From Candidatus Saccharicenans sp. (GTDB lineage: Bacteria; Acidobacteriota; Aminicenantia; Aminicenantales; Saccharicenantaceae), in NCBI GenBank assembly GCA_030017715.1, contig JASEIU010000003.1, positions 248,001 through 312,000 on the forward strand: a DNA stretch of 64,000 nt, given 5' to 3'. Under the pieces are notes generated by a model, which saw only the letters and a list, made by a program, of their open reading frames with translations, searched no databases and was not told the origin of the DNA. Positions 629 to 56,047 of this stretch are shown here, in pieces. Position 1 is the stretch's first letter; every line of letters begins with the position of its first letter. Made by a program: the position numbers and the translations under genes.

Positions 629-2484
629 AAAAGCGCCTGTTACCTGTTTTCTTGGTGGCAGCGGTTCTTATGGCTTTTTCCCTCTCCCTGGCTCAGATGC
701 CGCCCCAGCAGCAGATGAAGCCGGAAGAGGTCAAAAGAGCCCTGAACCTGGTTTCCAAGCCTGAACCTGTTCCCGAAAAGTACAAGGCCGGTTTTGAGTC
801 CATAACCGCCCGGGATACTCTGTCCATGCTCAACTATCTGGCCTCTGACTGGATGGAAGGCCGGGATACCGGCAGCCGGGGTTATGCTGTGGCCGCCGAT
901 TACGTGGTTTCCCTGTTTAAGATGTGGGGAGTTAAGCCGGGCGGGGATGTCCCAAGAGCGGATATCAACATCGCTCGGGCTATGGCCGGTCAGACATCAA
1001 GGCAGGCTATGTCCATGGAGCGGAGCTATTTCCAGGAATTCACCCTGAAAGAAATCACCGACAGCCAGACTTCTCTCCGGGTGGAAATTTCCCGCGGCGG
1101 CTTCAATAAATCCAGGACTTTTGAAAGCGGAGTCGACTTCATGAACACCCTGTCTTCCGACGAAGACGTCAGCGGGCCGGTGGTCTTTGCCGGTTATGGA
1201 ATCAAGGAACCGTCGATCGGCTGGGACGAACTTAAGGGACTGAGCCTGAAGGATAAGATCGTCCTGGTCCTGAGCGACGCCCCTGGTAAAGATGACCCGA
1301 ATTCTCCTTTCAATAAGAATAAAGAACTCAAAGAAAAGTTTTTTCCTCAGGGTCCCCAGGCCATGCAGGCTCTGATGAGGAGAATGGGCCGGGGTGGTTT
1401 CAATAAACTGGAAGAAATTTACAAGCAGCAACCGGCGGCGGTGTTAATGGTTCAGAATACCGGAAAGGATTCCGACATTTACAACATGCTGACTGCGGCT
1501 CAGAACCGTCAGCCTGACGATTCCCGGCCGATCATCAAGAGGCCCAGAACAAGAATGGTCATCCCGGGAGGGCGCGATTCGATGGAAGGAATGATGGGGC
1601 TGAGCCGGGTGCCCACCCTGACCATCACCAGGGAAATGGCCAATTTAATCTTAGAAAACAGCGGCCAAACGATCGACGAACTGAAGAAAGCTATCGAGAG
1701 CACCTACAAACCTGCTTCAAGAGAGATTCCGGGCGCTCGGGTCAGCATCAATTCCACCGTTAAGGCCAATCTGATCAGGACGATGAATGTCATCGGCTAT
1801 ATTGAAGGTTCCGACCCGAAGCTCAAGGACGAATATTTTGTGGTCGGTGCGCATTTTGACCATACCGGAAAATGGGAAGATTACATATTCAACGGCTCCG
1901 ACGATAACGCCTCGGGCTCAGTTGGAGTTATGGCTATTGCCAGAGCAATGGCTCTCAATCCGGTTAAGCCCAGAAGAAGCGTCGTCTTCTGCCTGTGGAC
2001 GGGCGAGGAAAAGGGACTTCTGGGCAGCAGATATTATGTCCAGAATCCCACTTTCCCGATGGATAAAACCGTTGGCTACCTGAACTACGACATGATCAGC
2101 CGGCCGTTTGATGAGCAGACCTTTGCCAGGTATGCAAATATGTTCAAGGTTAAGGGAGTGGAAGACCTGGTCCAGCAAATCAGGCCGGCTTATTTTGTTA
2201 CCGTCAATGCCACCAAGGATTCGGGCTTTTACGAGATTCAGCAGGAGATGAATAAATACGTCGGGCTGGACCTGTTTGTGCGCGAACCGGAACTGGGACA
2301 GGGCGGCGGCGGTTCGGACCATTCGTCTTTTGCGGCCGTCAAGAAGCCGTATGTTTATTATATGACGGCCATGCATCCGGACTATCATCAGACCAGCGAC
2401 AGCCCGGATAAGGCTTCGGGCGAGCTGCTCAGCCGGGTGATCAAGCTGGGCTACCTGAGCGTCTTTGCCTTCGCCGACAAATAA
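625..2484 (+). CDS. Secreted M28 family metallopeptidase (PA-domain aminopeptidase type)
   Basis: Signal peptide; GAHFDHTG...NGSDDNASG...WTGEEKGLLGS...SDHSSF motifs typical of M28. Confidence 0.93.
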   Translation: MKKRLLPVFLVAAVLMAFSLSLAQMPPQQQMKPEEVKRALNLVSKPEPVPEKYKAGFESITARDTLSMLNYLASDWMEGRDTGSRGYAVAADYVVSLFKMWGVKPGGDVPRADINIARAMAGQTSRQAMSMERSYFQEFTLKEITDSQTSLRVEISRGGFNKSRTFESGVDFMNTLSSDEDVSGPVVFAGYGIKEPSIGWDELKGLSLKDKIVLVLSDAPGKDDPNSPFNKNKELKEKFFPQGPQAMQALMRRMGRGGFNKLEEIYKQQPAAVLMVQNTGKDSDIYNMLTAAQNRQPDDSRPIIKRPRTRMVIPGGRDSMEGMMGLSRVPTLTITREMANLILENSGQTIDELKKAIESTYKPASREIPGARVSINSTVKANLIRTMNVIGYIEGSDPKLKDEYFVVGAHFDHTGKWEDYIFNGSDDNASGSVGVMAIARAMALNPVKPRRSVVFCLWTGEEKGLLGSRYYVQNPTFPMDKTVGYLNYDMISRPFDEQTFARYANMFKVKGVEDLVQQIRPAYFVTVNATKDSGFYEIQQEMNKYVGLDLFVREPELGQGGGGSDHSSFAAVKKPYVYYMTAMHPDYHQTSDSPDKASGELLSRVIKLGYLSVFAFADK

Positions 2485-2540
2485 AAGAGGGGACACCTGC
2501 TGGTGTCCCCTCTTTAGTGGGGACACTAAGAGATGTCCCC
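2484..2540. repeat. Tandem pair of REP-like palindromes, 30-bp pitch
   Basis: AAAGAGGGGACACC-TGCT-GGTGTCCCCTCTTT (14-bp perfect stem, 2484-2515), then GGGGACACTAAGAGATGTCCCC (2519-2540). Confidence 0.95.
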
Positions 2541-3176
2541 TTTTCGGGCTAAGATTCTTATCCCAAGTTCAGTTTCTATCCTTCTTAAGAAAAGCTCGCT
2601 GCCCAGAGGTTTGCCATTGCTGTTATTCTCCTGGAAGGTTCTTAAATCATGCTCGCACTCTGTTTCACTCAGGTAGCTCTGCCAGTCTTGAACTTTATAG
2701 GCCAGCGGTAGCGGGCTTAAAACCAAATCCTTATTTCCCATGATATGAGCCCTGGCACTTGACCACTTATAATCTTCCGCCCGCTTCACAAGACCGGCTC
2801 TAACTGGATTTCGTTCGATATACCGCATACAGCGATAAAGATATGTTTCGTCCATTGGATAGGAAATAAAACGTCCCTGCCAGAGATGGCCCTTCCAATT
2901 ATTCCTGATGTTGATAATAAGGCTATATTTTTTATGAGTCTCAGAAATGGCCCTTCTCAGGCTCGCACCATCTTCAGGAACGGCAATTATATGAACATGA
3001 TTATCCATAAGGCAATAACACCAGATTTTTACTCTTTCGAGACGGGATTTATGGTTCAATATTTCTAGATACAATTGTTTATCATCTTCAGTGAAAAAGA
3101 CCTTTTGATTCCGATTACCCCGCTGGATAATGTGATGAGGTGCGTTCGGAAATATTATCCTTCTGGTCCTTGGCAT
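2526..3176 (-). CDS. REP-associated tyrosine transposase (RAYT, Y1_Tnp / IS200-like)
   Basis: PHHIIQRGNRNQKVFF, DNHVHIIAVPE (HUH) and RYIERNPVRAGLV, typical of the TnpA_REP family; flanked by the same palindromes on both sides. Confidence 0.93.
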   Translation of the reverse strand: MPRTRRIIFPNAPHHIIQRGNRNQKVFFTEDDKQLYLEILNHKSRLERVKIWCYCLMDNHVHIIAVPEDGASLRRAISETHKKYSLIINIRNNWKGHLWQGRFISYPMDETYLYRCMRYIERNPVRAGLVKRAEDYKWSSARAHIMGNKDLVLSPLPLAYKVQDWQSYLSETECEHDLRTFQENNSNGKPLGSELFLRRIETELGIRILARKGDIS

Positions 3177-3234
3177 AGCACATAATAAGACGAAGGAAAT
3201 TTGTTCTCTTTATCACCGTTATGGAACTTTTTTC

Positions 3235-3256
3235 GGGGACACCTGCAGGTGTCCCC
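3235..3256. repeat. REP-like perfect palindrome upstream of the RAYT
   Basis: GGGGACACCTGCAGGTGTCCCC. Confidence 0.95.
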
Positions 3257-3261
3257 TCTTT

Positions 3262-5988
3262 TTAAAGGTTGAAGCGGTAGGAAAATTTCACCAGGAAGAT
3301 GTTGTCGCCGGGGGCCGTGAACAAGTTCCCCAGGTCACGCCACAGCGATAGCTGGCCCGGATAGCTGAAATCGGCCCGGTTCTGCGTCCAGACCAGATAC
3401 AACAGCGACCCCGGCCGGTACTCCCATCTCAGGACCACCGTTCCCCGCATCGATTTATAATTAAAATCCGGATTGGCCAGGTAAAAAGAAGCAGCCGGCC
3501 CTAAGCCGTCCGGGTCAACCAGATACTGGCCGTCCTCTTCCACTATGGTTGAGCCGCCTTCTCCGAACACCAGATAATCGTAAGCCCTCGGCCGGTTTAG
3601 CTGCTTGAACCGGTCATATTTCCCCACGGCGATAAAAGGCTGGAGATAAGCCTGCAGGCTCAGAGTCGGAGTAAAGATCCAGTTGACCCTGATCTCGCTG
3701 GCCACAATCCTCTGGTCGATCCGTCCGAAAATGTACCGCACCCCGTAAGTTTCGACCATCAGCGGATCCACCACCTTTTTTACCCACTGGGTTTCGTTCT
3801 TCGAAAAGCCGATCATCGGCCCGACCGACAGACTCAGGTTGGTTCTCGGTTTCCAGCGCACCGAAAAATTGGCCATCCATTCGCTGGAATCATGCTGAGT
3901 CCACTGATAGGAAAAATTTCCCTGCAGCACCACCGGTTTCCGGGAATCGCTATTTAAGAACAGCTGGTGGATCATACCAGACGGAGTCAGGGCCAGGGGG
4001 CCGCCCCGCGTCAGTCGATTGCTCAAAGCTTCGGGCACAAAGATTAAGGTATATTCAAAATTCCACCAGTTTTTCAGAAGACCCTGAAAGTCGGCCGCCG
4101 CGCAGGTAAACGTCCGATTGCCACCGAAATCGTATTGAACCGAACCCCCGGCTATGGCCGTCCACTGCCTGAATAATTTGCCCGGTTTAGTCCACTGATA
4201 GCCATAAAGCCCCATGACATCAAACAGGTCCGAGCCTGAACTCTGAAAGCCTATATCGTTGGGGTCAAATCCCGGAGACAGGGCCCCGGCCGAAACCAAA
4301 AACAGGTGGTGTCCCTGCTGCCTGGCCAGCTTCAACTGCCCGGCCCAGCCATTAAGGCTGGTGGCCTCGGGATTCAGGCTGACATGGGTTGCGTCCGGCC
4401 TCTGGAAATAATGCATTGACGATTGCTGCAAGCGGTAGATATCTTCCTGGCTCCCCTGGATGAAAGTCCCGCCCAGCCAGCCGCCGACCACCCAGGTTCT
4501 CTTTTTATCCAGGAATGACCAGCCGTCCATGGCCAGGCTGAATGCTCGTTTGTTGAGAAGGCCTGACAGTGTTTCGCTGTCGAGGTCCCTGACCACTCCC
4601 GTGGCCATAAAACCTATTCCCTGCTGACCGTCCTTGATTTCTTTCTGGGCTCGAAGAACTCCGTAATAAGATAGCGGCTCGACTTCGTCGCTGTATCTCT
4701 GTTCCAGGTCATCGACCGTGGCAAATTCCCGCCCGGTCACGGCGCTGATGAAACCGACATTCCAGCCCGAGCCCATCTTTCCCGTCAGTTTGAAAGCCCC
4801 GAGTATGGTCGTCCGGTCCGGAAAATTGACATATCCATCATGAACCGGATAACCCTGCGGCGCCCGCCCTATCCTGCGGCTGTAGAAGAAACGAGGGTTG
4901 GGCCAGTTGATGTTGGCGTTTATGTAAACGCCGCCGCGCCCGAAGTGATTAAACATCGAAGCACCCTCGATAAAGAACGGCCTCTTTTCCTGATAATAGG
5001 TTTCATAAGCGCTGAGGTTTATAACAGCCGGGTCAACTTCCACCTGTCCGAAATCCGGGTTGATGCTGACATCGAGGTTGAGGTTGCTCTTCAAACCGAT
5101 CTTCATATCAAACCCGGCATTGCCCAGGTATCTATGGCCGGTCTCAAAAGGATTTCCGGGTTCGGCCGGGCGAAACTGGGCCTGCCCCACGGAATAGGGA
5201 TAGAGCTCCACCCGCCGACCGGGGCTGATATTCTCTATGCCTTCCAGGCGAGCAAACCGGGAGACATAGGCCGCATCTTCTTTCGGCACCCAGGCAAAGG
5301 CCAGTTTTTCCTGTTTGCGTTTTATCGTCCGCTGGAAATTCACTCCCCAGATGTAACTGTCCTTTCGGGGAAAACGAAGCTGGTTAAACGGAATTTTCAT
5401 CTCCAGCGTCCAGCCGTCAGCCACCCGGGCCGCCCTGGCTTCCCAGATTCCGTCCCAGCTTTCATCCTCGCCGACATCGTTGAACAGGACTTCATCCACG
5501 ATGGACCCGGAAGGATTCACTCCGAACAGAAAACCGCTCCGCCGGTCAAAATAGGGATCGACGGCAAAGAAAAACCAATCCGACTCAACGAAGGAATCGC
5601 GGCGGCCCAGCAGGCCGATTATGCCTTTCGGGTCTGAGTCGTGACAGTAAGCAGCCACGTAAAGGTTAGCTTCGTCATAGGCCACCCAGACTTCCGTCTT
5701 CTCTGAAGCCGGGGCGCCATCTACCGGGTCGCGCTGGAGAAAATCGTTGGCCGGTTCGCCGGATTTCCAGATTTCTTCCTCCAGCAGGCCATCAAGCTTT
5801 ACGGGTTGACTTAACCTTATGGCCCTGACCACTTTCTGCTCCTGAGCTTTTTTCAGGGCTTCTTTATCGATTTCAGCCGGCCTGGCATTATCCTTTCCTG
5901 TAACCGCTGCCCCCAGACCAGCTGAACTCAAGAAAACAACCAGGGCCAGAATGATTATGATTGCGGTAATAATTGCTTTTTTAATCAT
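3262..5988 (-). CDS. CBM9-like / DUF5916 outer-membrane protein
   Basis: N-terminal KLDGLLEEEIWKSGEP...WVAYDEANLYVAAYCHDSD and C-terminal beta-barrel pattern; paralogue of 19625-22477. Start at 5988 chosen for its RBS; the ORF extends to 6000. Confidence 0.85.
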   Translation of the reverse strand: MIKKAIITAIIIILALVVFLSSAGLGAAVTGKDNARPAEIDKEALKKAQEQKVVRAIRLSQPVKLDGLLEEEIWKSGEPANDFLQRDPVDGAPASEKTEVWVAYDEANLYVAAYCHDSDPKGIIGLLGRRDSFVESDWFFFAVDPYFDRRSGFLFGVNPSGSIVDEVLFNDVGEDESWDGIWEARAARVADGWTLEMKIPFNQLRFPRKDSYIWGVNFQRTIKRKQEKLAFAWVPKEDAAYVSRFARLEGIENISPGRRVELYPYSVGQAQFRPAEPGNPFETGHRYLGNAGFDMKIGLKSNLNLDVSINPDFGQVEVDPAVINLSAYETYYQEKRPFFIEGASMFNHFGRGGVYINANINWPNPRFFYSRRIGRAPQGYPVHDGYVNFPDRTTILGAFKLTGKMGSGWNVGFISAVTGREFATVDDLEQRYSDEVEPLSYYGVLRAQKEIKDGQQGIGFMATGVVRDLDSETLSGLLNKRAFSLAMDGWSFLDKKRTWVVGGWLGGTFIQGSQEDIYRLQQSSMHYFQRPDATHVSLNPEATSLNGWAGQLKLARQQGHHLFLVSAGALSPGFDPNDIGFQSSGSDLFDVMGLYGYQWTKPGKLFRQWTAIAGGSVQYDFGGNRTFTCAAADFQGLLKNWWNFEYTLIFVPEALSNRLTRGGPLALTPSGMIHQLFLNSDSRKPVVLQGNFSYQWTQHDSSEWMANFSVRWKPRTNLSLSVGPMIGFSKNETQWVKKVVDPLMVETYGVRYIFGRIDQRIVASEIRVNWIFTPTLSLQAYLQPFIAVGKYDRFKQLNRPRAYDYLVFGEGGSTIVEEDGQYLVDPDGLGPAASFYLANPDFNYKSMRGTVVLRWEYRPGSLLYLVWTQNRADFSYPGQLSLWRDLGNLFTAPGDNIFLVKFSYRFNL

Positions 5989-6134
5989 ATCTAACTCCAT
6001 CCTTTATAAAATTCGGGACAACTTGTATATTTCCCTATCACTTTTATTGCGATCATATAGTTTTCCTTTTCGACCATCTCAGTCATCATCTCTATTAACG
6101 AAAATTGGCCCCACAAAGTTCACTCAAGACAACA

Positions 6135-6366
6135 GGGGACATCTTAAACTGTCCCCGATTATGAGGGGACAGTTTATAGTGTCCCCGACCTTCCTCCCTT
6201 CTTTTCCCCATATAGAATGGCATGAAAATTGTCGTCAAAGGGGACACCGTACGATGTCCCCTTTTGGTATGATAAAAGGCAGTTATTTCCTCCTGTGGCT
6301 TTACTGAGCGAGGCGGGGACACTCTTAGGTGTCCCCGAAAAATTGGGGACAGTGCAGGGTGTCCCC
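6135..6366. repeat. Five-hairpin composite REP element, copy 1
   Basis: Palindromes begin at 6135, 6165, 6240, 6315 and 6345 (offsets 0/30/105/180/210); CCCCATATA box in the first spacer. Confidence 0.93.
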
Positions 6367-6412
6367 TTGTTATGAGCCGATTACGGTGCGGTTTCGCCCT
6401 GATTCCTTGGCT

Positions 6413-7741
6413 TTATATATAAAGGGCAGCATCGGCCTGGTGAATCAGACCCGGCAGGTCGCTGACTTTATCAGATGGAAAGCTGGCCACGCCGGCGCTC
6501 AAGGTAATTTTCAGGTCGAACGACCCGTACTGCAGCCGCAGGGTTTCGGCTTTGTTCCGCAATTTTTCCATAATCTGATAGGCATCAACCGCCGAAGCTC
6601 CATTAAACACCAGAAGAAATTCTTCCCCGCCAAATCTTATCACCAGGTCGGAGACGCGAATATTCTGGGCAAAAAGTCCGGCCAGGGTCTTCAAGACGAA
6701 GTCTCCGGCTTGATGCCCGTAGGTGTCATTAATCTTCTTAAAATGGTCTAAATCCACCATGGCCACCGACAGCGGCATCCGGTAACGCTTCGACCTCTCA
6801 AATTCTTCAGTCATTCGCCTCAGTCCGAATCTCCGGTTCAACACTCCCGTCAGTTCGTCAATGGCCGCCATTACCTCCAGCCTTTTCATGATCATAGCAT
6901 TGTAAATAAACGGGGTGGCCTGCATTATAAAATTTCTGGCTTCCGGGGCGGCAAAACCTCGCTTAAAAGGTTCTCTGGACAGCAGACCGCAAACCCCGAC
7001 CTCTTCATTCCTGTATTTAAGAGGAATCAAAGCTATATGTCGCGGGTCAAGCAGGCCCACGCCAATGTGCAGATGTATAGCCTCCCCCTCGATCCCCGAC
7101 ACCACCACCGGCCATTCCTGCTTCATTAGCTCGAGCCAGTAGGCTTCTTGAATCTGTTCTCTGTTTATCTCCACCGACTGGCTTTTGACCAGCCTCATCT
7201 CACCTCTCTCCAGCACCAGCAGAAAACTGCCCTGTCCCCCAAAATACTCGCTGAATGCTTCCAGCACCACCCTGGCCACCTCTTCCAGTTTGAGGTCGCG
7301 TTTCAGCCTGTCGAGGAAGCTATTGGTTGTCCTTTCCACCTCGACAAAATTGGCCACCGAAGAAATCAGGTTATTAAAATCCCCCGAAATTTTACCTAAG
7401 ATGTCGGCCGAGGAAGCATCCACCAGACAATCCTCCATCCGGCAGCTGCCTTCAGCCGGGCTATTCCTGTGGCGCTCCAGCTTTTCGCTGAAAAGCTGCA
7501 TCCTCGCCGCCAGATTGGAAAGAAACCGATATACCACTCCGCGAAAAATAAAATAATTGCAGAGGCCAACGATTAATCCCGCCAGGACGCACATTGAAAA
7601 ATAGAGCGGCGTCAGTACCCTGGAAGCCGGCAATTTAAGAAGCCAGAGAGAAAAGAAGGGAAAGATCAACCCCATCAGCAATCCAAAACCCAGCATAAAA
7701 AACAACTGGTCCCTGACAACACTCCCGGTAAGGCTTTTCAT
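6413..7741 (-). CDS. Membrane GAF-like/GGDEF diguanylate cyclase with apparently frameshifted C-terminus
   Basis: DELTGVLNRRFG...DLDHFKKINDTYGHQAGD...RFGGEEFLLVF; RBS before 7741; ORF ends ADAALYI* at a TATATATA tract. Confidence 0.92.
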   Translation of the reverse strand: MKSLTGSVVRDQLFFMLGFGLLMGLIFPFFSLWLLKLPASRVLTPLYFSMCVLAGLIVGLCNYFIFRGVVYRFLSNLAARMQLFSEKLERHRNSPAEGSCRMEDCLVDASSADILGKISGDFNNLISSVANFVEVERTTNSFLDRLKRDLKLEEVARVVLEAFSEYFGGQGSFLLVLERGEMRLVKSQSVEINREQIQEAYWLELMKQEWPVVVSGIEGEAIHLHIGVGLLDPRHIALIPLKYRNEEVGVCGLLSREPFKRGFAAPEARNFIMQATPFIYNAMIMKRLEVMAAIDELTGVLNRRFGLRRMTEEFERSKRYRMPLSVAMVDLDHFKKINDTYGHQAGDFVLKTLAGLFAQNIRVSDLVIRFGGEEFLLVFNGASAVDAYQIMEKLRNKAETLRLQYGSFDLKITLSAGVASFPSDKVSDLPGLIHQADAALYI

Positions 7742-7795
7742 AATCCCCTCCCTCATTTTTAATTTATAGCATCAGGAAGATTATATTAAAAGCAA

Positions 7796-7816
7796 TGGAC
7801 ACCATAAAGTGTCCCC
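7796..7816. repeat. Degenerate REP-like palindrome
   Basis: TGGACACCATAAAGTGTCCCC. Confidence 0.7.
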
Positions 7817-7922
7817 TCTCACCGGACGTCAACAGACAAATTGCCTGACCAAAAAATAAGATCCCCAAAAAGCAGAAAAACGCCCCCCCAAACAAATTGA
7901 TGGGCCTGTTTATGTTCTCTGT

Positions 7923-9086
7923 CTAAGCGGCCAGATTCAGTTCCTGCCGTATCCGGCTGGCCAGCAGATTTTGCTTTCTCAGGTAAAGTCTGGCTGGCAG
8001 TCCAGTCCGGGAAACCATCCTGGCCATGATTTTAACTGCCTCTCGCCTGAAGGCCAGCGCTTCCTCCCTACCCCTGGAGAGAGTTTCGATTACGGCGTCT
8101 GCCAGGGCGTTGCCGGTTTCCATCTTCAAGCCTTCCTTGTTCATAACCCAATCCCCGCTGTTCAGAATCATTTCCAGGCGATTACGAATCTCGTTCTTAA
8201 TCCGGTTATAGGTCAGGTCTTCGGCGACCAGCCAGGCACTCCCCTTCTTTATCGACTCATAAAATTCTCGGAAATTATTGCCTCTGGCCACGGTAAATAT
8301 CCGACCTATATCGCCGGTGTGGGAATCTGTGCCGGCCGCCACCCCTTTGTTCTTCGAAGCCGCCAGCTCCAGCACCAGCCGGTTTAACTTTCCAATTCGT
8401 CCCAGGTTGTATTCGAGCACCGGGAACATCCCGGACAGTTCCGCTACTGCGGCCGGATTGAGCTTCTCCCCGGGTTCATGCCAGAAAGGGTGATTGAAGA
8501 TGAAGGGCAAATTCTCTTCCTTCAGGTACTCAACCAGCCTTTCAATATCCCCGGACGTCCCGGCAATTGTTTCTATTTCTGCAAATTGTTTCCTGTTCAG
8601 CATATAGACATTAAGATGGACCGTATGACCGACTTTCTTTCGGTCCAGGATTTTCACTTCAACCCCGGTCACCAGATCCTCTCTTGTCCAGCCGACCCGG
8701 TCGTAGGCATCCATAGTGTCATGGTCGGTAAAGCAAATGAAACTCATTCCTCGGGCTCTGGCCCTTTCATAGAGAACCAGCGGGTCAACTTCTCTGGTTG
8801 GGACCACGTCATAAGAATAGAAGGTGTGGACATGCAGGTCAGCCGCCTGCCAGCCCCCTTCTATCAGGCGAGTGGCTCTATCCCGGGTAATTATCCGGTT
8901 GCTTTGTAGACTATTATCGGTCATCTCATTTTCGGTCAGAAATTCAGTCGATCCGGCTCCGAGATCGCCGATTTTGCGCTCGCCCTGGCCCCGGAAATCC
9001 CGACTCCCGTTGCCTGGAAACCGTGTCGCCATTTGATTCTGAGCTTCCAGCCCTTTTATTTTTCCTGTTTCTGTTGCCAGTTTCAT
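7923..9086 (-). CDS. PHP-domain metal-dependent phosphoesterase-like protein
   Basis: DLHVHTFYSYD...ICFTDHDTMDAY...FNHPFWHEPG...AGTDSHTGDIG. Confidence 0.87.
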   Translation of the reverse strand: MKLATETGKIKGLEAQNQMATRFPGNGSRDFRGQGERKIGDLGAGSTEFLTENEMTDNSLQSNRIITRDRATRLIEGGWQAADLHVHTFYSYDVVPTREVDPLVLYERARARGMSFICFTDHDTMDAYDRVGWTREDLVTGVEVKILDRKKVGHTVHLNVYMLNRKQFAEIETIAGTSGDIERLVEYLKEENLPFIFNHPFWHEPGEKLNPAAVAELSGMFPVLEYNLGRIGKLNRLVLELAASKNKGVAAGTDSHTGDIGRIFTVARGNNFREFYESIKKGSAWLVAEDLTYNRIKNEIRNRLEMILNSGDWVMNKEGLKMETGNALADAVIETLSRGREEALAFRREAVKIMARMVSRTGLPARLYLRKQNLLASRIRQELNLAA

Positions 9087-9320
9087 TCTCGTTTTCTCTT
9101 TCCTTTTTCTTTTTTATCTATCGTCAGAGTAGCAAACCTGAATTAAAAAACCGGGTAAGATAGGTTAAAGTTCTGTTAAGAAAAAATGAGTGGGTTAACT
9201 TCAAGCCGGTAAATCAGGCGCCTCTCAAAGTGAGAATAATAGAGCCCTTGCCTTTTCAGTTAATTTTTATTAATCTGACCTGAGAATTATGATAGAAATT
9301 ATGGATCCGATATCGGAGTA

Positions 9321-10448
9321 GTGCCCATGTTATCAAAAAAAATCTATCCTGCTGTTTATCTGTTGTTAATCGCAATTTTTCTTAGTCTGCCCATTCTGGC
9401 CCTGGCCCGGGAGCAACAGGAAACCCGCCTGGCTGCGGCCCGGGAATCCGAGGGAGAGCTGGGGCAGCAGTCGACTGAGTCAAAGAATCAGGAAATCGGC
9501 CCGGGAGCCGGCAAAGGCCAGGGGCAAAGACAGGGGTTAAGACAGGGGCAGGGACAGCAGAGACCGGCTAATCAGCAGCCGCTACCAACTCAGAATTTCT
9601 TTCGTTTTTTGTTTTCGTCCAAACTTATCACCATGCTGGTGATCGGCCTGGTAGCCCTGGTTCTGCTTCTGACCGGAAAAATGGACAACAGAACCAGAAT
9701 TCCATTTCTGGTCGTAGCCACCTTTCTCTATGGCGTCTCGGCCAACCTCGGGCTGAAGCTCTTTTCCGGTTTTTCCATGCATCCTTCCCCCATCTGCGCC
9801 ATCACCAAGCCCCTGCTTTATGGACTCAGGACTCCGATGCTGGCCACACTGGCCGTAATCCTTTTCCTCACAATAATAGGACCGAAGCTCTTCTGCAGTT
9901 ATGTTTGTCCGGTCGGCGCCATCCAGGAATTAATCGCCATGCTGGCCGACAAACTTAAAATCAGAAGGCGAAAACCCTCCTTCAGACTCAGTCAGACTGT
10001 CCGGGTGCTGATTTTCTTAGCCTTCATTGCCTTCAGCTGGACGGCTATCATTCACACCATCTACCAGGGCCAGGTCCGGGCTCTCTCGCTCTATGATTAC
10101 ATTAATGCCTTTGAAGGATTCAAATGGAACCTGCAGCCGACGCTCCTGGACAATCTGTTTCATTTTCTCCCTCTCATCCTGACTCTGGCTTTTGCTTTCT
10201 TTACCTACCGACCCTATTGTTATTATGTCTGCCCCGTTGGGCTGTTCACCAATGTGCTTGAGCAGGTGGCAATCTTCCGGGTTGTTAAGAAAAAAGATGG
10301 CTGCAACGATTGTCAGGTATGCGTGGACAGATCACCCTGCCCGGCAGTCGCCGAGATACTTAAAGACGCAGTTCTTGTCCCGGATTGTTTCTCCTGCACC
10401 GTCTGCACCCGTGGCTGCCCCCGCAGCCAGCTGAAATTCGGCCGCTAA
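9321..10448 (+). CDS. Membrane 4Fe-4S polyferredoxin (NapH/NosR C-terminal-like)
   Basis: CSYVCPVGAIQE, CYYVCPVGLFTN, CNDCQVCVDRSPCP and CFSCTVCTRGCP cysteine motifs plus transmembrane segments; Q/G-rich N-terminus. Confidence 0.88.
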   Translation: MPMLSKKIYPAVYLLLIAIFLSLPILALAREQQETRLAAARESEGELGQQSTESKNQEIGPGAGKGQGQRQGLRQGQGQQRPANQQPLPTQNFFRFLFSSKLITMLVIGLVALVLLLTGKMDNRTRIPFLVVATFLYGVSANLGLKLFSGFSMHPSPICAITKPLLYGLRTPMLATLAVILFLTIIGPKLFCSYVCPVGAIQELIAMLADKLKIRRRKPSFRLSQTVRVLIFLAFIAFSWTAIIHTIYQGQVRALSLYDYINAFEGFKWNLQPTLLDNLFHFLPLILTLAFAFFTYRPYCYYVCPVGLFTNVLEQVAIFRVVKKKDGCNDCQVCVDRSPCPAVAEILKDAVLVPDCFSCTVCTRGCPRSQLKFGR

Positions 10449-10453
10449 TAACA

Positions 10454-10684
10454 GGGGACACCTTACGGTGTCCCCGGAAAAATGGGGACAGTGTACGGTG
10501 TCCCCTATTCTTCTCCGGTTTTTTCCCCATAGAGAAATTAATTATGAGGATCAAAAAAGGGACACTTTACGGTGTCCCCTTTCAGGTCAACTTTCTGGAA
10601 CGTTTTTCCCATGAAATCAGGCACAAGACAAAGGGGACACCTTACGGTGTCCCCGAAAAAATGGGGACAGTGTACGGTGTCCCC
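10454..10684. repeat. Five-hairpin composite REP element, copy 2, filling a convergent intergenic region
   Basis: Palindromes at 10454, 10484, 10559, 10633 and 10663; the first and last hairpin pairs form near-identical ~53-bp direct repeats. Confidence 0.95.
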
Positions 10685-10693
10685 TGTTTGGGG

Positions 10694-11887
10694 CTACCTG
10701 GCCTTCACTGCCGCGGCCATCTCCAGGGCCAGCTTTCTCAGCCGCTCAAAATCCTCGCCCTTGGCTGAGAACTGGACTTCGACCGGCTGGCCGACCAGCG
10801 TCCAGTTGTTCTTCCTCAGGTGCTCCAGAATCCCCTTGACTCCGCCCCCGCTCCAGCCGTATGAACCAAACACCCCGAAAACCCGGTTGGGCAATCCTTT
10901 ATGGGCCAGGTTGATGATCACATTTTCCAGCGGCGGGTAAATCCAGTTATTGTAAGTGCAGCTGCCGAAAACAACCCCCTTGAAGCGCCAGATTTCGTTG
11001 ATGATGAAAGACTCGTGAACGGTCGAAGTGTTCATCACCCGGAGATGTTTTATTCCCTCGTCGGCCAGCGCCCGGGCCACAAAATCGGCCATCTTTTCGG
11101 TGTTGCCGTACATGGTGCCGTAAGCAATCACCACGCCTTCGTCATATTCATACCGGCTCCACCTGTCGTAAGACGAAATGATTCGTTTGGGATCGGTCCG
11201 CCAGACCGGTCCATGGGTCGGGCAGACCACCCTGACCTCCAGCCCGGCCAGCCTCTGCAGCGCCTTCTGGACCATGGGCCCGAATTTTCCGACAATATTG
11301 GAATAATATCTCCTGATTTCATGCTCGTAATAGGCGACGTCGACTTCGTCATCAAAAACTCCGCCGTCCAGGCTGCCGAAACCGCCGAAGGCATCTCCTG
11401 AAAAAAGAATCCCCCCGGTTGTTTCATAAGTCATCATAGTCTCAGGCCAGTGAACCATCGGGGTCAGATAGAATCTTAACTTCCGTCGCCCCAGGTCTAT
11501 TTCATCCCCGTCCTTGACTTCATAGAAGTCCGCCTCGATCTGGTACATAGCCCTTACGAACTCGACGGTTTTTTTATTGCCGACTATTTTCAAGCCGGGG
11601 AAGGTCTGGATGACAGCAGCCAGGGCTCCAGAGTGGTCCGGTTCCATGTGATTGATAATCAGGTAATCAAGCTTCCGGCCCTCCAGCAGCTGGTGAATTC
11701 TTTCCAGGTATTCCGATATTTTGCAGAGCTTGACCGTGTCCACCAGGACCGTCTGCTCATCGACGATCAGGTAGGAATTGTAAGAAACCCCTTTCGGCAG
11801 CGGCCAGATATTTTCAAACAGGTGGGTATCACGGTCGTTAACCCCGACATAATAAACGCCGTCAGCAATCTTAATTGTCCGGTCCAT
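10694..11887 (-). CDS. A-type flavoprotein (flavodiiron protein, FprA-like)
   Basis: NHMEPDHSGAL, VHWPETMMTYE, FSGDAFGGFG and flavodoxin domain YGTMYGNTEKMADFVA. Confidence 0.95.
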   Translation of the reverse strand: MDRTIKIADGVYYVGVNDRDTHLFENIWPLPKGVSYNSYLIVDEQTVLVDTVKLCKISEYLERIHQLLEGRKLDYLIINHMEPDHSGALAAVIQTFPGLKIVGNKKTVEFVRAMYQIEADFYEVKDGDEIDLGRRKLRFYLTPMVHWPETMMTYETTGGILFSGDAFGGFGSLDGGVFDDEVDVAYYEHEIRRYYSNIVGKFGPMVQKALQRLAGLEVRVVCPTHGPVWRTDPKRIISSYDRWSRYEYDEGVVIAYGTMYGNTEKMADFVARALADEGIKHLRVMNTSTVHESFIINEIWRFKGVVFGSCTYNNWIYPPLENVIINLAHKGLPNRVFGVFGSYGWSGGGVKGILEHLRKNNWTLVGQPVEVQFSAKGEDFERLRKLALEMAAAVKAR

Positions 11888-19469: not shown

Positions 19470-19496
19470 AAATCAGGAAATATAGATTGCGTCCCC
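19470..19496 (-). repeat. Asymmetric GGGGACACAATCTATATTTCC-type repeat (family 2)
   Basis: + strand AAATCAGGAAATATAGATTGCGTCCCC. Confidence 0.75.
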
Positions 19497-23492: not shown

Positions 23493-23519
23493 AAATCAGG
23501 AAACATATATTGTGTCCCC
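23493..23519 (-). repeat. Family-2 asymmetric repeat
   Basis: + strand AAATCAGGAAACATATATTGTGTCCCC; neighbouring TTTTGTGTCCCCG fragments. Confidence 0.7.
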
Positions 23520-25110: not shown

Positions 25111-25132
25111 GGGGACATCTTACACTGTCTCT
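25111..25132. repeat. Degenerate REP-like palindrome
   Basis: GGGGACATCTTACACTGTCTCT. Confidence 0.7.
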
Positions 25133-27361: not shown

Positions 27362-27593
27362 GGGGACACCTTTTAGTGTCCCCAACATTTCGGGGACATC
27401 TTATAGTGTCCCGGCTTTTCCACGCCAAGCTATATGGGGAAAAAACCGGACGTCCGCTCGTCAAAAGGGGACATCGTAGAGTGTCCCCCTTTTTGGCTGT
27501 TTGTGGGCTCGTCTATATGGGGAAAAATGGAGGGGAAGATCGGGGACACCTTACAATGTCCCCCGAAAAAAAGGGACACTGTAAGGTGTCCCC
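27362..27593. repeat. Five-hairpin composite REP element, copy 3, filling a convergent intergenic region
   Basis: Palindromes at 27362, 27392, 27467, 27542 and 27573; TATATGGGGAAAA box in both spacers. Confidence 0.95.
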
Positions 27594-31538: not shown

Positions 31539-32933
31539 ATGGATAAGCGAAGCTCTGCAAGAAAAAAGAAAGTCCTGGTTATCATGGGCACCCGGCCCGA
31601 AGTCATTAAACTGGCTCCGGTGGTTGAAGCGCTGAATCGGCCGGAGAAAGCCTGGTCAAGGAAGACCGAGAGCGCCAGGAAGACGGGAGGCAGGTTCCGG
31701 ACGATAATCTGCCTCACCGGGCAGCACCGGGAAATGGTGGAACCGTTTTTGAAGATTTTCGGGTTGAAGCCGGATTATGACCTGCGGGTGATGGTGCCCA
31801 ACCAGCATCTCGGCGAGCTCACCGGGCGGGTGCTGGCCGGAATGAAAAAAGTCCTGGAGGCAGAAAAACCCGACTGGCTACTGGTCCAGGGAGATACCAC
31901 TTCGGCCATGGCCGCAGCCCTGGCTGCTTTCTACCAGAAGATAAAAATCGGGCATGTGGAAGCCGGCCTGAGAACCGACGACAAATATAATCCGTTCCCG
32001 GAAGAGATTAACCGGCGGCTGATCAGTCACCTGACCGACTTTCATTTTGCACCGACCGAGCTGGCCAGACAGAACCTGCTGGCGGAGGGCGTGAGGCCGG
32101 AGAACATCTTTGTTACCGGGAATACCGTGGTCGACGCCCTGAAAATGATACTGAAAAAATCGGGCCGGGAAGATAAGAAAATTAAGGAAAACAGAGCTGC
32201 AGGCAGAGAGAAAATAATTCGCATCACGGAAATCGGGGCAACCGAGCAGGAGAGAGGAGAGCCGGCAGGCCGGAGCGCGGACAGGAGCACAGGACAGAAG
32301 AACAGCGGATTTTCGGGCGGAAAGAGCGGCGCGAGTGAAAGGGGCGACTTCGTTTCCGGGTCAGGGCTAAACCGGGCTGAGGAAACACTAAGCTTTGACC
32401 GGGTGAAAAAGATTAAAAAACTGATTCTGGTCACAGCCCACCGGAGGGAGAGCTTCGGGCAGGGGCTGGAAGGAATCTGCCGGGCAATTCTGGAAATTGT
32501 TGGAAGGATTAAAGAGGCAGAAGTGATTTTCCCGGTGCATCTTAACCCGGCCGTGAGAAAGACCGTCTTAAGCCGCCTGAAGGGGCAGGAGAGGATTCAT
32601 CTGGTGGAACCGCTGGATTACGTGACGTTTGTTCATCTCATGAGGCGGGCGAGTTTGATTCTGACCGACTCGGGCGGTATTCAGGAGGAAGCCCCGTCGC
32701 TCGGAGTCCCCGTGGTGGTGATGAGAGAGACCACCGAGCGGCCTGAGGCCATACAGGCCGGGGTGGCCTGGCTGGCCGGAACTGACCCGGAGAAAATTAC
32801 CAGGCTGGCGGTGCGGCTGCTAAAGAAGGTAGAGGACAGAGAATTCAGACGGGGGCTGAGCCGCCGGAATCCGTTCGGCGACGGTAGAGCCGGCCTTCGC
32901 ATCTCCCGCCTCCTTAAACCAGGGGACACCTGA
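31539..32933 (+). CDS. wecB: UDP-N-acetylglucosamine 2-epimerase (non-hydrolysing) with internal insert
   Basis: MGTRPEVIKLAPV, LTGQHREM, VQGDTTSAMAAALAAFY, GHVEAGLRT, TDSGGIQEEAPSLGVPVVVMRETTERPEA. Confidence 0.95.
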   Translation: MDKRSSARKKKVLVIMGTRPEVIKLAPVVEALNRPEKAWSRKTESARKTGGRFRTIICLTGQHREMVEPFLKIFGLKPDYDLRVMVPNQHLGELTGRVLAGMKKVLEAEKPDWLLVQGDTTSAMAAALAAFYQKIKIGHVEAGLRTDDKYNPFPEEINRRLISHLTDFHFAPTELARQNLLAEGVRPENIFVTGNTVVDALKMILKKSGREDKKIKENRAAGREKIIRITEIGATEQERGEPAGRSADRSTGQKNSGFSGGKSGASERGDFVSGSGLNRAEETLSFDRVKKIKKLILVTAHRRESFGQGLEGICRAILEIVGRIKEAEVIFPVHLNPAVRKTVLSRLKGQERIHLVEPLDYVTFVHLMRRASLILTDSGGIQEEAPSLGVPVVVMRETTERPEAIQAGVAWLAGTDPEKITRLAVRLLKKVEDREFRRGLSRRNPFGDGRAGLRISRLLKPGDT

Positions 32934-33152
32934 TACTGTCCCCGATTTTTTGGGGACATCTTACAGTGTCCCAGCTTTTGGCGCCAAACCACCAGGGGGA
33001 AAATCCGGGCTTCCGCTCATCAAAAGGGGACATCATAAAGTGTCCCCTTCTTTGGCTGTTTGGCTGTTCGTCTATATGGGGAGAAACCAGGCTAAAAAAC
33101 AGGGACACCGTTAACTGTCCCCAGAATAAAGGGGACATCGTAAAGTGTCCCC
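32922..33152. repeat. Five-hairpin composite REP element, copy 4, filling a convergent intergenic region
   Basis: Palindromes at 32922, 32952, 33026, 33102 and 33131; shares CCGCTCRTCAAAAGGGGACATC and TTTGGCTGTTTG with copy 3. Confidence 0.95.
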
Positions 33153-33962: not shown

Positions 33963-33991
33963 GGGGACACAATCTATATTCCCGAATTTTC
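33963..33991 (+). repeat. Family-2 asymmetric repeat
   Basis: GGGGACACAATCTATATTCCCGAATTTTC. Confidence 0.75.
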
Positions 33992-34266
33992 AGGGATCTC
34001 GCATTAAGGGTTCCCAATACTCATTCGCCGATCTCTTGAGAGATGGGTGCGCCAGTAAAAACTAAACTATTTTTGCTAAGAGGACAGCACCCCACAAATT
34101 GTTAAATTAAATTGCCGAATTTGCAGGCAAAAATTTGGCGCTCCAGGAATTCTGGCAGCCTTAACCTATCTTTAGAATATCCGAGAATAATATTCGGCGA
34201 ATCAGGCGAACCTCACCGATTTTCTTGAAAAATCAGTTAAATTATGCCGTAGCCCGCACGTAAAAA

Positions 34267-34360
34267 GGGACACCGAAGAGTGTCCCCTGCTTTCCCTTCC
34301 TGGCCATATGGGGAAAAAGGCACAGAACATTAGACAAAAAGGGACACTGTAAGGTGTCCC
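34267..34360. repeat. Two REP-like palindromes at ~75-bp pitch with CATATGGGGAAAA box between
   Basis: GGGACACCGAAGAGTGTCCCC (34267) and GGGACACTGTAAGGTGTCCC (34341). Confidence 0.9.
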
Positions 34361-34473
34361 TGTTTTCTCTGTTTTCTCATCATGGAGCTTAGACCTCTGA
34401 CCGGGTCTGCCCTCTGGTTTTAGGGCCCTTGCCAGGGCTGCCGTTTGTTGACTTTCTCCGGCGCGGTTTTTCC

Positions 34474-38914: not shown

Positions 38915-38980
38915 GGGGACACAATCTATATTTCCGAATTTTCTTTCCTTTTTTAGAAGGGGACACCGTGCAGTGTCCCC
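38915..38980. repeat. Family-2 repeat followed by a REP-like palindrome
   Basis: GGGGACACAATCTATATTTCCGAATTTTC (38915) and GGGGACACCGTGCAGTGTCCCC (38959-38980). Confidence 0.88.
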
Positions 38981-40482: not shown

Positions 40483-40578
40483 GGGGACACTTTACGGTGT
40501 CCCCTTTTTCGGGAAAAAACCCGCCCGCCAACAGGCTAAAATTTCTCACAAAAATCAGGGACACAATAAAGTGTCCCC
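40483..40578. repeat. Two REP-like palindromes at ~75-bp pitch
   Basis: GGGGACACTTTACGGTGTCCCC (40483) and GGGACACAATAAAGTGTCCCC (40558). Confidence 0.93.
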
Positions 40579-42447: not shown

Positions 42448-42696
42448 GGGGACACCTTCTATATTTCCGGTTTTTTGAAAATCAAAAATTGAATTCAATA
42501 ACGCTAAACACGTTGCCTTAAGGAAGTTTCCCTTCGCCCCAAAAACAGGGAACATGAAAAGGCCAAAATAAGGATATATAGATTGTATCCGCAATTCGAC
42601 CGGGACACTTTAATGTGTCCCCGAATTTGGCAAAAATTTTTCCCCTGTTTGGAAAGAAATAAATTATAATAAAAGGGGACACTTGAAGGTGTCCCC
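42448..42696. repeat. Mixed array: inverted pair of family-2 repeats plus two REP-like palindromes at ~74-bp pitch
   Basis: GGGGACACCTTCTATATTTCC (42448), reverse copy GGATATATAGATTGTATCCGC (~42572-42592), GGGACACTTTAATGTGTCCCC (42602), GGGGACACTTGAAGGTGTCCCC (42675). Confidence 0.9.
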
Positions 42697-48222: not shown

Positions 48223-48244
48223 GGGGACACTTTACAGTGTCCCC
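48223..48244. repeat. REP-like palindrome 3' of the LolA-like gene
   Basis: GGGGACACTTTACAGTGTCCCC. Confidence 0.95.
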
Positions 48245-53286: not shown

Positions 53287-53315
53287 GGGGACACCTTCTA
53301 TATTTCCAGATTTTC
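53287..53315 (+). repeat. Family-2 asymmetric repeat
   Basis: GGGGACACCTTCTATATTTCCAGATTTTC. Confidence 0.75.
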
Positions 53316-53385: not shown

Positions 53386-53416
53386 AAGAGGGGACACTTT
53401 CAGGTGTCCCCTCTTT
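53386..53416. repeat. REP-like palindrome with extended stem
   Basis: AAGAGGGGACACTTTCAGGTGTCCCCTCTTT. Confidence 0.95.
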
Positions 53417-55995: not shown

Positions 55996-56047
55996 GGGGA
56001 CACTTTAAGGTGTCCCCGGTAAAAAGGGGACACTTTCAGGTGTCCCC
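55996..56047. repeat. Tandem pair of REP-like palindromes, 30-bp pitch
   Basis: GGGGACACTTTAAGGTGTCCCC (55996) and GGGGACACTTTCAGGTGTCCCC (56026). Confidence 0.95.

Follow-up and report, generated by a model that had tools for sequence, protein, structure and literature searches.

The closest described relatives of the system considered here are the TIRtrons of Di Nocera et al. (2013; PMC3733652), in which RAYT-like genes are accompanied by flanking TIRs, several of which share the motif GGGGWSAS, some of which are self-complementary and some of which occur in dimers or clusters. The transposases concerned, the TIRYTs, form a large branch of domesticated Y1 transposases, and the survey of Quentin et al. 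assigned most of the TIRYT genes of Di Nocera et al. to TnpA-Y1 subclass 2.1, for which no REPs were found (PMC6006769). Among the REPtrons, the iREP is not a substrate of the enzymes from E. coli and S. maltophilia (PMC8266576). Within the literature searched, which excluded most subscription journals, the term TIRYT was found only in PMC3733652 and PMC6006769, experimental work on any TIRYT was not found, and queries pairing GGGGACA with transposase returned primers and unrelated text; nor was any description of the Saccharicenans repeats found, which, given the journals outside the search, is weak evidence.

The RAYT under study lies in the window, i.e., the whole 64-kb stretch of DNA that was analysed, and was compared across 19 Candidatus Saccharicenans genomes (Aminicenantes/Acidobacteriota), those with a best RAYT of 70% or higher identity to that of the window being termed clade A genomes. 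Its ORF (2526-3176, reverse strand) is intact and encodes a 216-aa HUH/Y1 transposase (RAYT/TIRYT) with the motifs NHVH (H60, H62), WQ (residues 99-100) and YIERNP (Y119), all of them invariant across relatives. The protein matches Pfam Y1_Tnp at 1.6e-12 and the NCBI model NF047646 (REP_Tyr_transpos) over residues 4-139 with 67.9 bits, below the cut-off of 80, while the best PDB match of its AF2 model (mean pLDDT 74) is TnpA-REP 4er8 (E 2.1e-8). With a dN/dS of 0.03-0.13, the gene is under strong purifying selection, and this low ratio, the invariant catalytic residues and the predicted fold nearest to 4er8 together point to a retained function. No Pfam HTH match was obtained for the C-terminal region in 10 RAYT members at E values up to 5; the model places helices there at 175-185 and 194-204, both with low confidence. 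RAYT-A is present in one copy per genome, the other matches in clade A genomes belonging to separate clades. The second RAYT in the window's genome (L017, at G000:C10:430206-430838) belongs to clade D and is flanked by its own asymmetric TIRs, of whose class that genome carries some 39 copies.

Three exact palindromes stand at the RAYT gene. On its 3' side, 2489-2510 and 2519-2540 form a palindrome-8-palindrome block (2489-2540) that starts 4 nt beyond the M28 peptidase stop codon, and on its 5' side 3235-3256 ends 5 nt short of the DUF5916 stop codon (gene at 3262-6000, reverse strand). The initial annotation had located the RAYT stop codon inside a 3' palindrome, as is indeed the case (2526-2528, within 2519-2540), and was right that palindromes lie on this side; the 32-bp unit that it delimited at 2484-2515 resolves into 22-bp palindromes with short AAA...TTT extensions. 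The class A consensus is the 22-nt GGGGACACCTTAAGGTGTCCCC, with hairpin arms GGGGACAC...GTGTCCCC. Allowing up to two mismatches, the pattern GGGGACAN8TGTCCCC occurs 36 times in the window against 0.30 expected and a maximum of 2 in 100 shuffles, which upholds the abundance first reported and corrects the figure, from about 35 hairpins away from the RAYT to 33, with 3 at the gene itself. A genome-wide scan and a count of RAYT genes yielded 49 exact copies (2.89 Mb, 18 contigs), 25 of which fall within the window, and, next to the single-copy RAYT-A, the one clade D paralogue at 60% identity; this distribution is based on pattern searches and fetched stretches. The neighbouring 20 kb to the left and 19 kb to the right of the window hold no palindrome, even at two mismatches. 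Clustering is strong, at 2489-56047 in the window and at G014:C1:12284-54531 in Ca. S. subterraneus, with the RAYT at the cluster edge in both genomes, and local spread or regional tolerance could be its cause. The MAGs are incomplete and break at repeats; as several contigs end at or near palindromes (G014:C7, G009:C6, G009:C19, G000:C10:33), the copy numbers given are probably minimum values, and assemblies may be broken by the repeats themselves. A search for structured RNA families gave no Rfam match within 2300-11000.

The modular spacing that had been noticed at the outset is real. Arrays of five palindromes, 232 bp in length and with offsets of 0/30/~105/~180/~210, are found at 6135-6366 (0/30/105/180/210), at 10454-10684 between two convergent stop codons with gaps of 5 and 9 nt, at 27362-27593 between convergent ORF ends, and at 32922-33152, where the array overlaps one stop codon and lies 2 nt from the opposing one. 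Two-palindrome units with a spacing of 74 bp occur at 34266-34361 (REPIN-like), 40483-40578 (starting 6 nt past a stop codon) and 42601-42696, and a further palindrome-8-palindrome block at 55996-56047. The remaining copies are lone palindromes at 7795-7816 (degenerate, two mismatches), 25111-25132 (two mismatches), 38959-38980, 48223-48244 and 53390-53411 (4 nt from a stop codon). In paired palindromes, the spacers (e.g., 27414-27466 and 34288-34339) differ in sequence with a length of about 52 nt kept, often with CATATGGGGAAAA or its complement. A lattice of 15-bp half-sites (30, 75, 105, 180, 210) was rejected, as it fits the window only, the other genomes having spacings of 73-75, 53, 78, 83, 87 and 103. 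The outer palindrome-8-palindrome blocks of one array (10454-10505 and 10633-10684) are near-identical direct repeats, which suggests that this array expanded through duplication of a block or through recombination; in Ca. S. subterraneus (G014), the site is occupied by one two-palindrome unit.

The originally proposed link between the RAYT and the dispersed palindromes is borne out across the genus, since copy number follows the RAYT clade and the palindrome is the TIR of the RAYT. All 8 clade A genomes carry exact palindromes, between 25 and 104 each, against 0, 0, 0, 0, 1, 1, 1, 3, 10 (G007), 12 (G006) and 44 (G015) in the 11 other genomes. The outlier G015 has lost RAYT-A from the locus and kept a REPIN there, whose spacer matches the spacer beside the RAYT of G009; it also carries RAYT-E, the TIR of which is palindromic as well. 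Palindromes are absent from G016, the only genus member in which no RAYT match was obtained, so equal density in the absence of a RAYT was not encountered, and clade A is tied to this palindrome only, the neighbouring RAYT clades having TIRs of their own. The copies of these other TIRs likewise number more in genomes with the matching RAYT than in those without it (13-50 vs. 0-14 for class B, 7-39 vs. 0-12 for D and 9-25 vs. 0-10 for E); class D or E repeats in the absence of a detected matching RAYT are found in G009 and G014 and, for E, in G011. In a tree of 47 proteins, clades A and B are sisters, clade A having a support of 100/100, and no TIR type extends beyond a single clade. The RAYT-A genomes probably form one species clade, so that the copy-number contrast amounts to about one evolutionary event per class and p-values overstate independence. 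Across many phyla, an exact inverted TIR of at least 14 bp was present at 43 of 73 named RAYT loci, compared with 3.7% of mismatched pairs.

Clade A and clade B RAYTs share one locus, between the convergent M28 peptidase and DUF5916 genes. In 8/8 genomes RAYT-A occupies this orthologous position, with synonymous divergence near-saturated between many of them, and is flanked on both sides by palindromes or palindrome pairs; the clade B RAYTs (G008, G017, G018) are flanked there by the asymmetric TIR GGGGACACAATCTATATTTCC. The same place holds a host terminator hairpin and no RAYT in G001, G003, G012 and G013, a single palindrome in G006 and, in G015, the REPIN without a RAYT gene. The window is collinear over about 50 kb with contig QUAH01000007 of Ca. 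S. subterraneus BY38 (G014). Degraded copies of the class B TIR (GGGGACACAATCTATATTTCC type) persist in it, namely GGGGACACAATCTATATTCCC at 33963-33983 (+), a relic of the TIR type that belongs to the sister clade of RAYTs, and similar copies at 19476-19496 (-), 23499-23519 (-), 38915-38935 (+), 42448-42468 (+) and 53287-53307 (+). The simplest reading would be that one RAYT was inherited vertically and that its imperfect palindrome changed into a perfect one of equal 22-nt length, apparently at one locus, where the switch from B to A seems to be recorded. We infer the direction of change, from asymmetric to symmetric, because asymmetric TIRs predominate in the wider family.

As expected of REPINs, the hairpins form inverted pairs at a fixed distance, 73-75 bp in 60 of 120 neighbour pairs from seven genomes, and copies share their spacers up to about the unit edge. 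Such copies, 90-95% identical and 1-3 kb apart, sit in unrelated flanks, and their homology ends at the unit edge or within about 10 nt of it, which rules out segmental duplication as the origin of similar REPINs. The array at 32922-33152 corresponds to a clean empty site in G014, and among 16 class A gaps compared between the window and this Ca. S. subterraneus genome, 8 were occupied in both, 6 in G014 only and 2 in the window only. The repeats thereby appear to move as dimers of about 95 bp. Counting against a mobile-unit model is the great variation in sequence among the spacers of paired palindromes at constant length, which is unusual under simple whole-unit copying.

For the analysis of position, the palindromes were merged into 82 elements, of which 65 follow a gene; 46 of these lie no more than 12 nt from the stop codon of that gene, and an outward T-run is present in 60% of outer flanks as opposed to 15% at random intergenic sites. 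Counted one by one, with ORFs called by a simple greedy procedure, 43 of 109 palindromes are found at most 10 nt from a stop codon, compared with 6% of random intergenic positions, and there are 50 in convergent gaps and 16 in divergent ones, where 25 and 35, respectively, would be expected from gap length. The palindrome RNA folds at about -20 kcal/mol, similar to the host terminator at the RAYT locus of G003, the corresponding value for the class B TIR being -2.5; the lone palindrome at 48223-48244, between convergent genes with gaps of 3 and 6 nt, has a predicted fold of -20.5 kcal/mol and is followed by TTTTT. Judged by position and predicted fold, the palindromes have the form of intrinsic terminators, a GC-rich hairpin and then a T-run after the gene, and may terminate transcription in vivo. 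Purifying selection alone could be the source of the preference for intergenic ends and, given that REPs in general are already known to be enriched at gene ends (PMC3733652), position by itself is not new.

This terminator form invites the reading that the palindromes are ordinary bidirectional terminators of the host, formed in place at the ends of genes, with the RAYT among them by chance, which would account for their siting at stop codons, their convergent enrichment and their A-hairpin-T form; similar host terminators do occur at the RAYT locus elsewhere, such as AAAAAGGGGCACC...GGTGCCCCTTTTTT in G003. Such an origin is nevertheless very improbable, as the palindrome is the RAYT's own TIR in 8/8 clade A genomes, its copy number tracks the RAYT clade, copies with homologous 52-nt spacers are lodged in unrelated flanks, and the related asymmetric TIRs, of which the tested class B type forms no terminator hairpin, flank other RAYTs. 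Scarcely any credence is given to the palindromes being operators of a dimeric DNA-binding regulator or a nucleoid protein, with their spacing read as helical phasing. Although the perfect dyad symmetry, the fixed 8-nt core and the dominant 74-bp spacing, near seven helical turns, would suit such a role, 10.5-bp periodicity vanishes outside the 73-75 class (resultant 0.34; 0.17 on distinct values), the sites lie at gene ends and are depleted between divergent genes, and the association with the RAYT clade and the identity with its TIR are left unexplained. It is also very unlikely that a conventional insertion sequence of the IS200/IS605 type is involved, with a transposase that is still mobile and the palindromes as its MITEs. 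Several near-identical transposase copies would then be expected, whereas RAYT-A is single-copy at one orthologous locus in 8/8 genomes despite near-saturated synonymous divergence between many of them and its only match in its own genome is the 60% clade D paralogue; its NHVH/YIxxNP motifs, too, are those of TnpA-REP and not DH[VI]H/YxxxQ, even though the Y1 HUH fold, the inverted ends on both sides of the gene and the non-autonomous copies are what such an element would display.

The explanation favoured here, and regarded as highly probable, is a TIRtron-type RAYT system that mobilises REPIN-like palindrome units, which would then persist in terminator form. A single-copy, vertically inherited TIRYT-type HUH (Y1) transposase would recognise a 22-nt end starting with GGGGACA, and with this end a perfect palindrome in clade A, either strand would fold into an identical hairpin. 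Most probably, the enzyme acts in trans, cutting out single-stranded copies and inserting them anew without moving its own gene, cleavage and strand transfer by the RAYT and the single-strand route being presumed. The mobile unit would be REPIN-like and about 95 nt long, consisting of a palindrome, some 52 nt and a second palindrome; units would build up locally, with occasional mergers into arrays of three to six. The copies that persist would be those directly at stop codons; with its A-flanks and T-run, the GC hairpin could act there as a bidirectional intrinsic terminator.

Palindromic TIRs appear to have been gained repeatedly in the wider family, the first tree requiring a minimum of four changes and a larger tree five. 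Across the 74 loci scored, a basic AT-hook-like tail (KPGRPRK or KPGPKPK; GRPRK-like), a motif that was defined after the data had been seen, is kept in 54 of 56 RAYTs with asymmetric ends, whereas 17 of the 18 with palindromic ends lack it. G024a and L191 are exceptions to the rule, and L138 (QGRPRN), one of the two asymmetric tail-less cases, is probably a miss of the motif rule. Four of the five palindromic origins coincide with tail loss (independent-pairs sign test, p = 0.125). In a held-out set, the tail was kept in 9/9 asymmetric cases and also in both scored palindromic ones (L191 clearly, L199 doubtfully), which rules out tail loss as a strict rule. The inner halves of asymmetric TIRs are AT-rich (70% vs. 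42%). It is tentatively put forward, as an idea we hold to be possible and rather doubtful, that TIR symmetrisation changes how the transposase reads its ends, so that the tail becomes dispensable and is often lost, that a terminator shape is gained and that the locus records the switch between B and A. Ancestrally, the HUH core would read GGGGACA and the AT-hook-like tail the AT-rich other half; at a palindromic end, both halves would be GGGGACA, either strand would serve as substrate and the tail could be dispensed with. The symmetric repeats would thereby acquire the shape of a terminator, and the host might tolerate copies at gene ends.

The initial annotation had named the system a REPtron. 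The pairing of RAYT and repeat implied by that label holds; REP does not apply, in that the hairpin has no GTAG/GTGG guide (the tetranucleotide was found at the hairpin foot in only 2 of 418 flanks) and the repeat fits the GGGGWSAS TIRs of the TIRYTs and TIRtrons, GGGGACAC matching this motif exactly, both in the window and throughout most of the RAYT family. With a Y1 HUH motif and tyrosine, inverted repeats on both sides of the gene, GGGGWSAS and dispersed TIR copies, the system is best filed as a TIRtron whose TIR became a REPIN-like perfect palindrome, and not as a new GTAG REP class. A more conservative filing, as a further TIRtron member, could be chosen because self-complementary TIRs in dimers are already on record. 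The kind of system is therefore known, and what is new is the Saccharicenans repeat family and its switch to perfect symmetry: a perfectly symmetric TIR that was apparently derived, at one locus, from an imperfect one, symmetric TIRs that seem to have arisen more than once, in most cases together with loss of the GRPRK-like tail, and the placement of symmetric TIR copies flush with stop codons in what is, by its predicted fold, terminator form. In an uncultured phylum, mobile repeats have here come to resemble host terminators in both position and shape. The 19 related genomes make it possible to trace a TIRYT with its TIR through vertical inheritance at a single locus, a TIR change that separates sister clades, copying in dimeric form and siting at gene ends, a record that makes two questions directly testable, namely whether the enzymes mobilise their TIRs in trans and whether a symmetric hairpin is used on either of its strands.

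Like the TIRtrons (PMC3733652), which include a self-complementary TIR at S. maltophilia ORF 1152, the Saccharicenans system combines a Y1 transposase and GGGGWSAS inverted repeats with TIR families that reach moderate copy numbers and form dimers and clusters. It differs from them in that a perfect 22-bp palindrome has been amplified as dimers spaced by about 74 bp and as five-palindrome arrays, and in that TIR turnover is visible at one orthologous locus; Aminicenantes do not figure among the TIRtron cases consulted. By motifs only, the RAYT resembles TnpA-Y1 subclass 2.1, or Bertels group 1 (PMC6006769), in its NHVH, W[EQ] and YIxxNP, a length of ~220-240 aa and a C-terminal extension, and it shares the GGGG[AT][CG]A[CG] TIRs of that subclass; unlike the subclass, for which PMC6006769 lists no REP, its TIR has become a REPIN population. 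With the REPtrons of E. coli, Pseudomonas and Stenotrophomonas (PMC2817692, PMC3116915, PMC8266576), it has in common a single-copy conserved Y1 transposase, short hairpin repeats, here presumably mobilised in trans, and their occurrence as inverted pairs (REPINs) after stop codons and between convergent genes. It departs from them in lacking the GTAG/GTGG guide beside the hairpin and in the two-fold symmetry of the hairpin itself, by which REP and iREP become one and the same.
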